From Muribaculaceae bacterium (GTDB lineage Bacteria; Bacillota; Clostridia; Lachnospirales; Lachnospiraceae), in the NCBI GenBank assembly GCA_023666425.1, contig JAMPCA010000002.1, positions 124,001-188,000 of the forward strand: a stretch of 64,000 bases of DNA, given 5' to 3'. Under the pieces are notes generated by a model that saw nothing but the letters and a program-made list of their open reading frames with translations, made no database searches and was not told where the DNA came from. Of the stretch, positions 32,032-40,221 are shown piece by piece; within the stretch, counting starts at the first letter, position 1; the number at the start of each line of letters is the position of its first letter. The position numbers and the translations under genes are program-made.

Positions 32032-32060
32032 ATCTTATCACAATTTTTCAGACAATTCAA
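32032..32060 (-). promoter_or_regulatory. codY promoter
   Basis: On the minus strand TTGAAT (-35, 32055-32060), a 17-bp spacer and TAAGAT (-10, 32032-32037), 38 bp upstream of the codY start. It lies between topA and codY, so codY can be transcribed apart from comM-dprA-topA. Confidence 0.65.
32042..32057 (-). promoter_or_regulatory. codY: CodY-binding box in the codY promoter
   Basis: The minus-strand sequence AATTGTCTGAAAAATT matches the CodY consensus AATTTTCWGAAAATT at 13 of 15 positions. It overlaps the -35 element and most of the spacer, where a bound repressor would block RNA polymerase. This implies autorepression of codY. Confidence 0.7.
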
Positions 32061-36900: not shown

Positions 36901-37524
36901 CTACTCACTGAGAATTTTTCGAAGCTTGAGAAGCGCTTTTTTCTCGATGCGGGACACATAGGATCTGGAAATCCTAAGGTATTCGGAAATCTCTCTCTGC
37001 GTGCACTCCTCCTCGCCATCCAGACCGAAACGCTTGCGGATGATCAGATACTCCCTGGGGGAGAGCACTGCCTCCATCTGCCTGCGGATCTGGGCGATCT
37101 GCTCTCTCTGTTGTATGTCTGCCGCCACATCGGCGTCCTCCTGCTCCAGCACATCTACAAGATGAATCTGATTGCCCTCCTTATCTGTCCCGATGGGCTC
37201 AAAGAGGGAAACCTCACCCTTCGTCTTTTTCCTGCTGCGAAAGTGCATGAGCATCTCGTTGTCGATACAGCGGATCGCATAGGTTGCAAACCGGCTCCCA
37301 TAGTCTGTCTTAAAGCTCCCCACTGCCTTTAGAAGTCCTATCGTCCCAATGGAAATCAGATCCTCCATATCCTCCTCAGAGCTCTGATACTTTTTTGCCA
37401 CATGCGCAACCAACCGCATATTGTGTAAGATCAGTTCGTCTCTTGCGGCCGGGTTCCCCTTCGCAATTTCCTGCAGACACCCGGCTTCCTCCGACCGTGA
37501 CAGCGGAGCTAAAAAGGTTTTCAC
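36901..37524 (-). CDS. sigK: Sporulation sigma factor, SigK-like
   Basis: A 207-residue sigma-70 family factor closest in recalled sequence to the mother-cell sporulation factor sigma-K (LIxHNxRLVAHxxKK, EDLISIGTIGLLKAV, ATYAIRCIDNEMLMHFRSRK, PIGTDKEGNQIHLVDVL, TQREISEYLRISRSYVSRIE all match). Region 2 is about 20-95 and region 4 about 150-205. The start is a GTG at 37524. It lacks the roughly 20-residue hydrophobic pro-sequence of B. subtilis pro-sigma-K and is not interrupted by a skin element. SigE is a less likely alternative identity. Confidence 0.85.
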   Translation of the reverse strand: MKTFLAPLSRSEEAGCLQEIAKGNPAARDELILHNMRLVAHVAKKYQSSEEDMEDLISIGTIGLLKAVGSFKTDYGSRFATYAIRCIDNEMLMHFRSRKKTKGEVSLFEPIGTDKEGNQIHLVDVLEQEDADVAADIQQREQIAQIRRQMEAVLSPREYLIIRKRFGLDGEEECTQREISEYLRISRSYVSRIEKKALLKLRKILSE

Positions 37525-37610: not shown

Positions 37611-38213
37611 CTATTCCTCTTTCTGCGGAAGCCTCTGTGTCAGCTGCTCAAGCGCCCACCGCTCATACGGCACGCGCCCCTTTAACACCCGGCTCCTGAT
37701 ATAGGCAAAGGTATATTTCTCCCCCCGCACTGCGAGCATCGTCAGCAGATACTTAAGCAGAGCCTCTGTATCCGCGTGCATCATGTAATGCCCCTGCCCC
37801 TTTTTGTAATAAATGAGGGGACTGCTGTCTGTATACTTTTCCTTCTGGTAGTTCTTGGAGGCGCCGATGCGGTCCATAAACATCTCCACGACATACCTGA
37901 CCGGCATTTTCATGCCCGTCATGCCGCCGTGCCCGTCCTTTTTCGCCTGATAATCAATCCAGTACTCCAGATGATGCTTATTGCGCCCCTTGTGATGCAG
38001 CCATGCGGCGGAATAGCCCTTATCCTCCCGCTCCGCATTGTTCGGGCTGCGGTCGCCCTGATAATATTTGCAGCCCACCAAAAACTCTACAGGGGAATAC
38101 TTCGACCAGTCATGCATGATCCCCTGCCGGTAGAGTCCCACCTGAAAGCAGCCGGAGCGTACCAGCCTTTTATGTCTGACTATTGTTTTCAAATGCTCCC
38201 ATGCCTTGTTCAT
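37611..38213 (-). CDS. DUF5662 family protein
   Basis: A protein of about 200 residues that I recognise as DUF5662 (HLKTIVRHKRLVRSGCFQVG, HDWSKYSPVEFLVGCKYYQG, LHHKGRNKHHLEYWIDYQ, YMMHADTEALLKYLLTML). His, Asp and Lys residues in these motifs are strongly conserved in the family as I recall it, suggesting a metal-binding or HD-like enzyme, but no function is established. I start at the ATG at 38213 (MNKAWEHLKT). This overlaps the 3' end of the upstream GH13 gene by 44 bp. No good ribosome site is close, so translation may be coupled. Confidence 0.8.
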   Translation of the reverse strand: MNKAWEHLKTIVRHKRLVRSGCFQVGLYRQGIMHDWSKYSPVEFLVGCKYYQGDRSPNNAEREDKGYSAAWLHHKGRNKHHLEYWIDYQAKKDGHGGMTGMKMPVRYVVEMFMDRIGASKNYQKEKYTDSSPLIYYKKGQGHYMMHADTEALLKYLLTMLAVRGEKYTFAYIRSRVLKGRVPYERWALEQLTQRLPQKEE

Positions 38214-40110
38214 GTTTTTTACTACGCCTCTTTTTTTCAGATTTCCCAGGCCTGCTGACCAGTACACAGATGGACTGGGGCTTTAGATGTATGTACGCCT
38301 GCTGCTCCTGCCAGACGGGCTCCTCATAGCAGGGCGTCTCGCTGGCGCTGTCCATCACCAGATACCATTCCCTGTTCCCTGCAAGCTTCGGCAATGCAAG
38401 ACGGGAGACCGCCGCAAAAAAGTTGTATGCCACATAGACGTCGTCCGTCTTATCCGCCTCCCTGGAATATGCGCCGCAATACATCATTCCCAGACACATC
38501 TGCCCCACGTCCGGCTCTAAAATCCAGGCATTCTCCCCGTGGAAGGAGAGATCCGGCGCGCCTAATGAGCGGTAATCGCAAAACTGGAAGGGCGTCTCGT
38601 TAGAGAGAATGGGATGCTCTCTCCGAAAAGCCGCAAGCTGCCGTAAAAACTGCAATTCTTTTCTGTGGGAGCTCTCGTTACGCCAGTTCAGCCAGCCAAC
38701 CGTATTGTCCTGACAGTAGGCATTGTTGTTGCCCTGCTGGGAGTTGCCAATCTCGTCTCCCGCCCATACCAGCGGCACGCCCTGCGCCAAAAAGAGCATC
38801 ATCATACTGTTGCGCCACTTGATGCGCCGCAGGGAATTGATATACCGGCGGCGGCTGGGTCCCTCCACGCCGTAATTGTTGCTGAAATTCCAGGCATTCC
38901 CGTCCAGATTCCCCTCTCCGTTCGCCTCGTTGTGTTTATCGTTATACATGAACAGATCCGCCAGTGTAAAGCCATTATTGCCCGCTATGTAGTTCACATA
39001 GCCAAGCGTCGCCCCCTGCTTGCGCTGCTGGTCTGCAAACTCCCGCATATTGCTGTTGAGATGATTCAGGATTTTTCTGGCCGGATACATATATTCTTCC
39101 TTGTAAACAAAGAGCGTCCCGCGCCTCAGTTCCCCCGCCACTTCCGCAGGAAAGCTCTCACAGAACAGCTTCGTGCGGCTTAACATATTATCCTGCACGA
39201 CCGCTGTCAGGGGAATGCTGGGTCCCAGCAGATGAAAGCCGTCCACATGGTATTCTTTGACCCAGTAGCGCAGCGCATCCAGTATCAGGTTATGGTTCGT
39301 CCCCTCCGGGAAAAACATCTCCATGATGCACTCCATGCCGTGCTCGTGCAAACGCCGGATCAGCGTCTTGTACTCCACAGCCGCATTCTCCGGGTTCGAA
39401 GCGTAGGAAGCCTTCACCGCGAAGTAATCCCCCGGCCCATAGCCCCAGTAGTTGAGCTTTCCCCGCTCCTCCTTTGGAGCGGCCGGACGAATCACATCCT
39501 CCTCATCGGATGTCCATGTCACATACTCCGGCAGCTGTATCGTAACCGGAACCGGCATCTCCTCAAACTCATATACCGGCATCAGCTCGACACTGGTAAC
39601 GCCGAGACGCTTCAAATAACCGATCTTGTTCATCAGCGCGGCAAAGGTGCCCGGATGCTTTCCCCCCGCCTCCATGGTGAAGCCGCGCACATGCAGCTTA
39701 TACATAAACAGTTCGCAGGCAGGAATCTCCGGCGCCCGGTCCGCTCTCCAGTCAAACTCTTCCTCTGCAAACCCGGCATATACCTCATAGCCGTTTTCCT
39801 CCCGGCTGCTGTCATTCCAGTGCTCCCTGCCTGTCACCCGGCGGGCATAAGGATCCATCACAACATTCCCATTGATCTCATAATAATACTCATAATCCGG
39901 AACCGCAATCCCCCCGACCTCGACAGAGCGCAGAGAACCAAGGCAGAACTCTCCCGGAACCTCCAGCCGTACCCTGCTCTTATCTTTCCGGTTGACAAGA
40001 ACAACTGCACAGCAATCCTCCTTCTCCCCACAGAAGGTAAAGGTTATTTTATCCTGCCGTCTGCTCACTCCTAATTTCTCGTAATTTCCTTCTCTCATGG
40101 CATTTTTCAT
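38170..40110 (-). CDS. GH13 glycogen-debranching-like protein with degenerate active site
   Basis: A 646-residue protein with an N-terminal CBM48-like beta domain (about 15-110), a GH13 barrel and a C-terminal beta domain. It clearly aligns with GlgX/isoamylase-type debranching enzymes (LRYWVKEYHVDGF, DKHNEANGEGN, GVPLVWAGDEIGNSQQGNNN). Key residues are changed: the GFRFD nucleophile motif reads GFHLL (291-295), HDG reads NNG (378-380), and the region I D-x-x-x-N-H-T is missing. Only the general-acid Glu (about 318) may remain. It is therefore probably not a normal hydrolase; a glycogen-binding or regulatory role is a guess. The frame is otherwise intact. Confidence 0.88.
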   Translation of the reverse strand: MKNAMREGNYEKLGVSRRQDKITFTFCGEKEDCCAVVLVNRKDKSRVRLEVPGEFCLGSLRSVEVGGIAVPDYEYYYEINGNVVMDPYARRVTGREHWNDSSREENGYEVYAGFAEEEFDWRADRAPEIPACELFMYKLHVRGFTMEAGGKHPGTFAALMNKIGYLKRLGVTSVELMPVYEFEEMPVPVTIQLPEYVTWTSDEEDVIRPAAPKEERGKLNYWGYGPGDYFAVKASYASNPENAAVEYKTLIRRLHEHGMECIMEMFFPEGTNHNLILDALRYWVKEYHVDGFHLLGPSIPLTAVVQDNMLSRTKLFCESFPAEVAGELRRGTLFVYKEEYMYPARKILNHLNSNMREFADQQRKQGATLGYVNYIAGNNGFTLADLFMYNDKHNEANGEGNLDGNAWNFSNNYGVEGPSRRRYINSLRRIKWRNSMMMLFLAQGVPLVWAGDEIGNSQQGNNNAYCQDNTVGWLNWRNESSHRKELQFLRQLAAFRREHPILSNETPFQFCDYRSLGAPDLSFHGENAWILEPDVGQMCLGMMYCGAYSREADKTDDVYVAYNFFAAVSRLALPKLAGNREWYLVMDSASETPCYEEPVWQEQQAYIHLKPQSICVLVSRPGKSEKKRRSKKHEQGMGAFENNSQT

Positions 40111-40149: not shown

Positions 40150-40178
40150 ATTATACCCTTTTTTTCTTTACTTGTATA
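40150..40178 (-). promoter_or_regulatory. Promoter of the GH13-like gene
   Basis: On the minus strand TATACA (-35, 40173-40178), 17-bp spacer, TATAAT (-10, 40150-40155), about 40 bp upstream of the gene. It is divergent to, and 15 bp from, the consensus promoter of the DUF1292 gene. Confidence 0.6.
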
Positions 40179-40192
40179 GCTCCTATTTCAGA

Positions 40193-40221
40193 TTGACAAG
40201 AGAAAATCAACTCTATATAAT
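40193..40221 (+). promoter_or_regulatory. Perfect sigma-A consensus promoter of the DUF1292 gene
   Basis: TTGACA (40193-40198), exactly 17 bp, TATAAT (40216-40221). The gene starts 36 bp downstream of the -10. A perfect match to both boxes suggests strong constitutive expression unless repressed. Confidence 0.85.

Follow-up and report, generated by a model that had tools for sequence, protein, structure and literature searches.

A conserved family of GlgX-like proteins without the catalytic triad in Lachnospiraceae, and its possible role as an alpha-glucan-binding accessory of glycogen metabolism

The locus analyzed here raises the question of whether a protein that is built like a glycogen-debranching enzyme, and has lost the residues by which such enzymes cleave, is a maintained component of the cell, and if so what it might do. 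The window, i.e., the whole stretch of 64,000 nucleotides that was analyzed (contig JAMPCA010000002.1 of assembly GCA_023666425.1, positions 124,001 to 188,000), carries an open reading frame (ORF) for a GlgX-like protein, which a first-pass annotation had described as a debranching-like protein with lost catalytic residues in an intact frame. The ORF is indeed uninterrupted, and its start (M-K-N-A-M-R-E-G-N-Y) agrees with the consensus start of the family described below. The top NCBIfam match of the predicted protein was TIGR02100, the GlgX/isoamylase-type debranching enzymes, which we take to be subfamily GH13_11, at 288.6 bits (cut-off 640.9), and in Pfam it matched Alpha-amylase (35.7 bits). 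The N-domain, barrel and C-domain are present in the order found in GlgX, together with the isoamylase-specific motifs of the beta7-beta8 region, and no signal peptide was seen by eye.

The GlgX of the window's own genome (locus L017), which itself scores just below the TIGR02100 cut-off (622.7 bits), served as the reference for residue changes. The Asp-Glu-Asp triad that GlgX and isoamylases require is absent from the window protein, and the losses read in the first pass (the nucleophile Asp in GFHLL at residues 291-295, the transition-state Asp in NNG at 378-380, the substrate Arg replaced by His, and the D-x-x-x-N-H-T motif of region I) were all found at those positions in the alignment with L017 (Table 1). 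In addition, 44 GlgX residues after region I and 14 after region II are deleted. The surrounding motifs KHNEANGE and GNNNAYCQDN were both present, as had been claimed.

We then asked whether relatives share these changes, as the first-pass annotation had proposed to check. The family alignment comprised 297 rows, the window's own included: the 120 best homologues (close set, 54-100% identity, with P0001 being the window's own), 59 loci taken mostly as one per genus (distant set), and 118 proteins found with a profile, the sets overlapping slightly. Not one of the 297 rows carried more than one of the three triad carboxylates. In the close set the nucleophile column was occupied by Leu, Ile or Met in 120/120 rows, the transition-state Asp column by Asn in 120/120, and the Arg column by His in 119/120, and the general-acid Glu was present in 21/120 close and 7/59 distant rows. 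No triad residue was left in 40 of the 59 distant rows and one was left in the other 19; the transition-state Asp was retained in 11 of the 59, and the nucleophile column held Asp in a single row (L126), which lacks the other two triad residues. The profile-found proteins gave the same picture, with no triad residue in 67, one in 51, and the nucleophile Asp in 0/118. As a control, the triad was intact in 31/31 GlgX from the window's family of bacteria (the 30 best-scoring loci plus L017), and also in 16/16 uncut GlgX from other families of its order and class. Sequence evidence alone could hardly establish more firmly that the GlgX-like family (hereafter pseudo-GlgX) consists of pseudo-enzymes. 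In some loci the pseudo-GlgX protein is shorter and lacks the region III loop completely (L126, positions 958-2709 of the plus strand, and loci such as L110, L112-L114, L118 and L120).

Table 1. Features at the pseudo-GlgX locus (window coordinates; fractions are rows with the residue in the close and distant sets)
Feature	Position	Strand	Description
Non-catalytic GlgX-like ORF	38170..40110	-	646 aa, open throughout
NYWGY	39439..39453	-	Residues 220-224; -1 contacts Trp222 and Tyr224 retained: Trp 120/120, 59/59; Tyr 120/120, 57/59 (2 Phe)
Region I	39301..39333	-	Residues 260-270; D-x-x-x-N-H-T replaced, DVVFNHT to EMFFPEG; Glu264 at the Asp column
Region II, VDGFHLLG	39223..39246	-	Residues 289-296; Arg to His293, nucleophile Asp to Leu295; GFRFD to GFHLL (291-295)
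Region III	39151..39171	-	Residues 314-320; Glu318 at the general-acid column, where Glu is not conserved in the family
Region IV	38962..38985	-	Residues 376-383; CHDG to GNNG (377-380), His to Asn378, transition-state Asp to Asn379
KHNEANGE	38914..38937	-	Residues 392-399; Glu399 = GlgX Glu470; Glu 120/120, 56/57 ungapped distant
GNNNAYCQDN	38704..38733	-	Residues 460-469; Asn463 = GlgX Asn534; Asn 120/120, 56/56 ungapped distant
GNNNAYCQDN, Tyr465			= GlgX Tyr536; Tyr 120/120, 53/56 ungapped distant (3 Trp)
Promoter-like TATACA-17-TATAAT	40150..40178	-	10/12 positions; about 40 bases 5' of the pseudo-GlgX start codon; consensus match only
DUF5662 gene	37611..38213	-	Adjoins the 3' end of pseudo-GlgX; 44-base overlap if the start is the ATG at 38213

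A decaying gene, or a sequencing or assembly error, could in principle leave such a protein. The same residue states were found in a separate, 94% identical locus (L001) and across the 297 rows, and pseudo-GlgX was full-length in the distant loci uncut by contig ends. Furthermore, the ratio of nonsynonymous to synonymous substitution rates (dN/dS) was 0.126 against L001 and 0.142 against L002 (i.e., about 0.13), similar to that of the neighbors comM (0.131 and 0.193) and DUF5662 (0.105 and 0.120), which indicates purifying selection. A quick tree was inferred by maximum likelihood from 50 rows, without plant ISA2, and the 29 pseudo-GlgX rows in it formed one side of a branch (100 in the Shimodaira-Hasegawa-like approximate likelihood ratio test, SH-aLRT) adjoining the clostridial GlgX clade, two of the rows being long-branched. 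A recent mutation or an assembly error was therefore rejected, and decay or error as the general explanation is next to inconceivable. Parsimony on this tree required 2 changes at the nucleophile, 6 at the transition-state Asp and 4 at the general acid, consistent with a nucleophile that was lost once, early on, and a transition-state Asp that decayed later.

The distribution of the gene was analyzed in the 299 genomes of the window's family (f1), which was presumed to be Lachnospiraceae on the strength of its named relatives, namely Blautia, Roseburia faecis, Agathobacter and Lachnobacterium bovis along with other members of that family. The window protein had a match at E < 1e-10 in 243 of these genomes; 7 of the 243 apparently have active GlgX only (1e-33 to 1e-43), and the strongest active-GlgX match seen was 1.1e-53 (G035). 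With presence called at E < 1e-50, mostly by score alone, pseudo-GlgX was called in 236/299 genomes. Sixty of the 236 sequences were inspected, the window's included (the 30 best matches, and 30 chosen among matches less significant than about 1e-88, the latter including three cut by contig ends), and 0/60 had more than one triad residue; the weakest two called genomes, G074 and G130, were among the inspected ones and both have the pseudo form. A profile of the family (A2) scored 662-825 bits with the f1 pseudo-GlgX and at most 360 bits outside f1, where the sample comprised 245 class-level and 116 order-level genomes, overlapping and with some f1 genomes included. Of the matches outside f1, the 16 uncut GlgX-like proteins that were inspected have the triad, two are pullulanase-like, and three very long ones were left unaligned. 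Since the outside matches score so low and the inspected GlgX-like ones keep the triad, the pseudo form looks confined to f1 in the genomes sampled.

What, then, has selection maintained in these proteins? Among the 207 columns that are at least 95% invariant in the 31 GlgX, a column was counted as retained when the same residue occurred in at least 85% of the distant pseudo-GlgX rows. Overall, 61/207 columns were retained and 33 are deleted in most pseudo-GlgX rows, and the retained ones were unevenly spread, with 3/87 in beta3-beta6, 32/52 in beta7-beta8, 17/36 in beta1-beta2, 4/25 in the N-domain and 5/7 in the C-domain. The first-pass annotation had left the choice between a pseudo-enzyme, perhaps of a conserved family, and an enzyme with new chemistry. 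The former stood, as a single clade under purifying selection found in most genomes of f1, and the latter gained no positive support. A new catalytic chemistry, evolved where the mouth of the barrel used to act, would account for the strong purifying selection, for conserved carboxylates near the old site (Glu399 and Glu264, the latter not a triad position, with Glu at its column in 119/120 close and 49/59 distant rows) and for stretches particular to the family, e.g., EYxYPxRK...QQRKQG among close relatives. However, conservation is lowest in the beta3-beta6 half, and no residue has consistently taken over in the nucleophile column, which holds Leu, Asn, Ile, Gln, Met and others, with no carboxylate as a replacement, so that we judge this explanation very improbable.

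The retained residues were then compared with sugar contacts. In the report on S. venezuelae GlgX bound to acarbose (PMC9530166), the -1 contacts named are Trp222, Tyr224, His271, Asp342, Glu378, Trp380 and His449, and the contacts named to other sugars are Arg212, Glu470, Asn534 and Tyr536. These residues, for which the chain number is the number in the paper plus 3, were mapped by motif register. Three of the four contacts outside -1 (Glu470, Asn534 and Tyr536) lie in the beta7-beta8 half, and these and two of the -1 contacts are retained (Table 1). Conservation is lost in the columns of Asp342, Glu378, Asp450, His271 and Trp380, and the His449 column holds Asn in 119/120 close rows and is still His in 26/59 distant ones. 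Because sugar-contact residues are kept while the catalytic columns are lost, retained binding of alpha-glucan is favored, and glycogen binding by pseudo-GlgX is plausible. The KHNE and GNNN loops were modelled with low confidence, which was considered as a sign of a ligand-ordered site; this was rejected as uninformative, because an active GlgX control has equally low values at 523-541 and 593-601. In the intact Lachnospiraceae GlgX (L017 and L077-L106), the Glu470 column holds Trp in 27/31, possibly a change in branch preference.

In order to relate pseudo-GlgX to the glycogen enzymes, their co-occurrence was counted in the 299 f1 genomes. For GlgX and pullulanase the scoring covered no more than the 3-4 best candidates of each genome, so that absences of these enzymes are provisional throughout. 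The TIGR02100 scores were two-peaked, with GlgX at 606 bits or more (plus two fragmentary cases) and the pseudo form at 267 or less. By this split GlgX was found in 99/299 genomes (61 with a match over the curated cut-off), and type-I pullulanase in 68/299 by our own threshold (66 over the curated cut-off). GlgA and GlgB were over the cut-off in 289/299 and 283/299, respectively, and co-occurrence with GlgA was set aside as uninformative. Many Lachnospiraceae with GlgA and GlgB gave neither GlgX nor type-I pullulanase among the candidates scored.

These counts bear on the idea of a bacterial ISA2, in which the non-catalytic protein would be a required subunit of an active GlgX in the same cell, binding it and either activating or stabilizing it. 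In its favor, pseudo-GlgX was found in 92/99 GlgX-bearing genomes versus 144/200 others (p 1.7e-5), the ISA2 fold is among the closest, and Arabidopsis ISA2 lost the same set of residues (PMC3787081), with Glu264 and Asn378 matching its changes. On the other hand, GlgX was found in 92 of the 236 carriers, and no GlgX was found among the candidates scored in the other 144, which weakens a simple partnership with GlgX; neither GlgX nor type-I pullulanase was found in 107/236, and GH133 (GDE_C) was likewise not found in 34 of the 35 high-completeness genomes tested among these 107, the remaining one (G098) having a match of 25.1 bits (cut-off 21). A general ISA2-like subunit is disfavored by the carriers in which neither enzyme was found, and we consider it rather improbable, although a facultative role of this kind may exist where GlgX is present. 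In many Lachnospiraceae no GlgX-like protein other than the dead debranching enzyme was found. A stand-alone receptor for branched glucan, neither an enzyme nor an ISA2-type subunit, that acts as a glycogen-bound regulator or scaffold without active GlgX, debranching taking another route, has somewhat less than an even chance of being correct.

A further link to glycogen was given by GlgB. Pseudo-GlgX was absent in 15/15 genomes without a GlgB match at E < 1e-100, versus 48/284 others (Fisher 1.7e-11), and by the curated GlgB cut-off it was absent in 15/16, with G181 as the exception (2.3e-10), kinship being uncorrected in both tests. The reading that we prefer, with slightly better than even confidence, is that pseudo-GlgX is a cytosolic pseudo-enzyme of single origin from a bacterial GlgX-type debranching enzyme, which serves as a non-catalytic alpha-glucan-binding accessory of Lachnospiraceae glycogen metabolism. 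A single ancestral debranching enzyme would have given rise to the non-catalytic form; the protein, presumably located in the cytosol, would use its retained beta7-beta8 side and the NYWGY platform to dock on branched alpha-glucan without cleaving it; and the rebuilt beta3-beta6 face might recruit, shield from or regulate GlgB, GlgA, phosphorylase and, where present, GlgX.

Several observations weigh against this accessory role. Arg212, the fourth contact outside -1, lies in a loop that is replaced in pseudo-GlgX; the retained motifs extend over a long stretch, so that they may serve folding rather than a ligand; GlgA and GlgB are near-universal in the family, so that co-occurrence carries limited information; 4 of the 15 GlgB-less genomes are less than 90% complete; the carrier G181 has a GlgB match below the cut-off only; and no glg genes were found beside pseudo-GlgX in the loci examined. 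The broad retained stretch and the neighborhood without a conserved link to glg genes (gltX, helicase, DUF1292, DUF5662, sigma factor, comM, dprA, topA and codY) would suit a non-catalytic protein whose retained motifs are purely structural and whose function has departed from alpha-glucans, e.g., toward scaffolding or the sensing of a different ligand. Since specific sugar-contact residues are near-invariant over the 297 rows, and the gene is absent from the GlgB-less genomes, such a departure appears unlikely, albeit worth keeping in mind.

The set listed above, with pseudo-GlgX between DUF1292 and DUF5662, was complete in 10/16 close loci; at least one member was missing in the remaining ones, in several through contig ends, and gltX was not found in locus L002. 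DUF5662 lies directly 3' of pseudo-GlgX in 16/16 close loci and nearby in at least 12/20 distant ones, and its protein has, by eye, HD-like histidine motifs (HDxSKY and HHxGRNxHH). As a functional partner it was rejected, since its frequency is similar in genomes with pseudo-GlgX (31/38) and without it (28/38), which speaks for no dependence between the two. A gene for a SigK-like sporulation sigma factor, a frequent near neighbor of pseudo-GlgX, is located at 36901-37524 (minus strand); it passed NF004471 (273.9 bits, cut-off 252) and missed TIGR02846 (270.4 bits, cut-off 298.65). Upstream, promoter-like sites stand back-to-back at 40150-40221, with TTGACA-17-TATAAT (12/12) for DUF1292 on the plus strand and the site of Table 1 for pseudo-GlgX. 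Control of pseudo-GlgX by CodY was rejected, as no CodY-like box was seen near its promoter. The window has 8 CodY-box-like matches versus 1.97 expected, one of which, with 2 mismatches, lies at 32043-32057 just 5' of codY, possibly for autoregulation.

Lachnospiraceae are abundant gut bacteria, and the names given to pseudo-GlgX in the source records, where there is one, are 'glycogen operon protein (GlgX)' or 'alpha-amylase family glycosyl hydrolase'. Dead GlgX-like proteins tend to be counted as debranching enzymes or amylases. Provided that the triad argument is valid, these counts exaggerate the capacity for debranching, and 107 of the 299 genomes sampled, roughly one in three, would have pseudo-GlgX with neither GlgX nor type-I pullulanase found. 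The species with the pseudo form alone would allow the function of a dead isoamylase to be addressed without an active GlgX background.

Among the best literature matches, with subscription papers and preprints mostly outside the scope, no published description of a non-catalytic GlgX-like family was found. Published surveys list two glgX homologues for Blautia obeum (PMC10395257) and, for Butyrivibrio hungatei, glgX1 (726 aa, with CBM48) and glgX2 (648 aa, without CBM48; PMC5716241); we infer that such extra copies include the pseudo form, in the case of glgX2 by length and domain alone. Plant ISA2 is the closest known kind to pseudo-GlgX, both being isoamylase homologues without the catalytic triad. 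According to PMC3787081, Arabidopsis ISA2 forms a complex with ISA1, and 6 of its 8 conserved residues are changed (Asp292 to Glu, Arg373 to Cys, Asp375 to Ile, Glu435 to Asp, His509 to Asn and Asp510 to Ser), so that the region I Asp to Glu and the His to Asn changes recur here as Glu264 and Asn378. In PMC12892837, binding by ISA2 was reported to be limited to four glucose units and to lie in its C-terminal segment. The two differ in that an active isoamylase-type partner was often not found in cells with pseudo-GlgX, although the window's own genome has one (L017). Because the A2 profile scores ISA2 (217.8 bits) well below ISA1 (408.7) and GlgX (380), the losses in ISA2 and pseudo-GlgX look independent, and nothing in the scores points to a shared dead ancestor. 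The CD98 heavy chain (4F2hc), a membrane amino-acid transporter subunit, aligned only from residue 124 on, i.e., over the barrel and C-domain. GlgD has a fold unrelated to that of GlgX and differs in acting on ADP-glucose supply. It resembles pseudo-GlgX as a paralogue in bacterial glycogen metabolism that stands beside a catalytic subunit, GlgC (PMC10395257). Plant ISA2 would have a bacterial counterpart in pseudo-GlgX, whose bearers include the named strains Roseburia faecis M72 and Lachnobacterium bovis DSM 14045.
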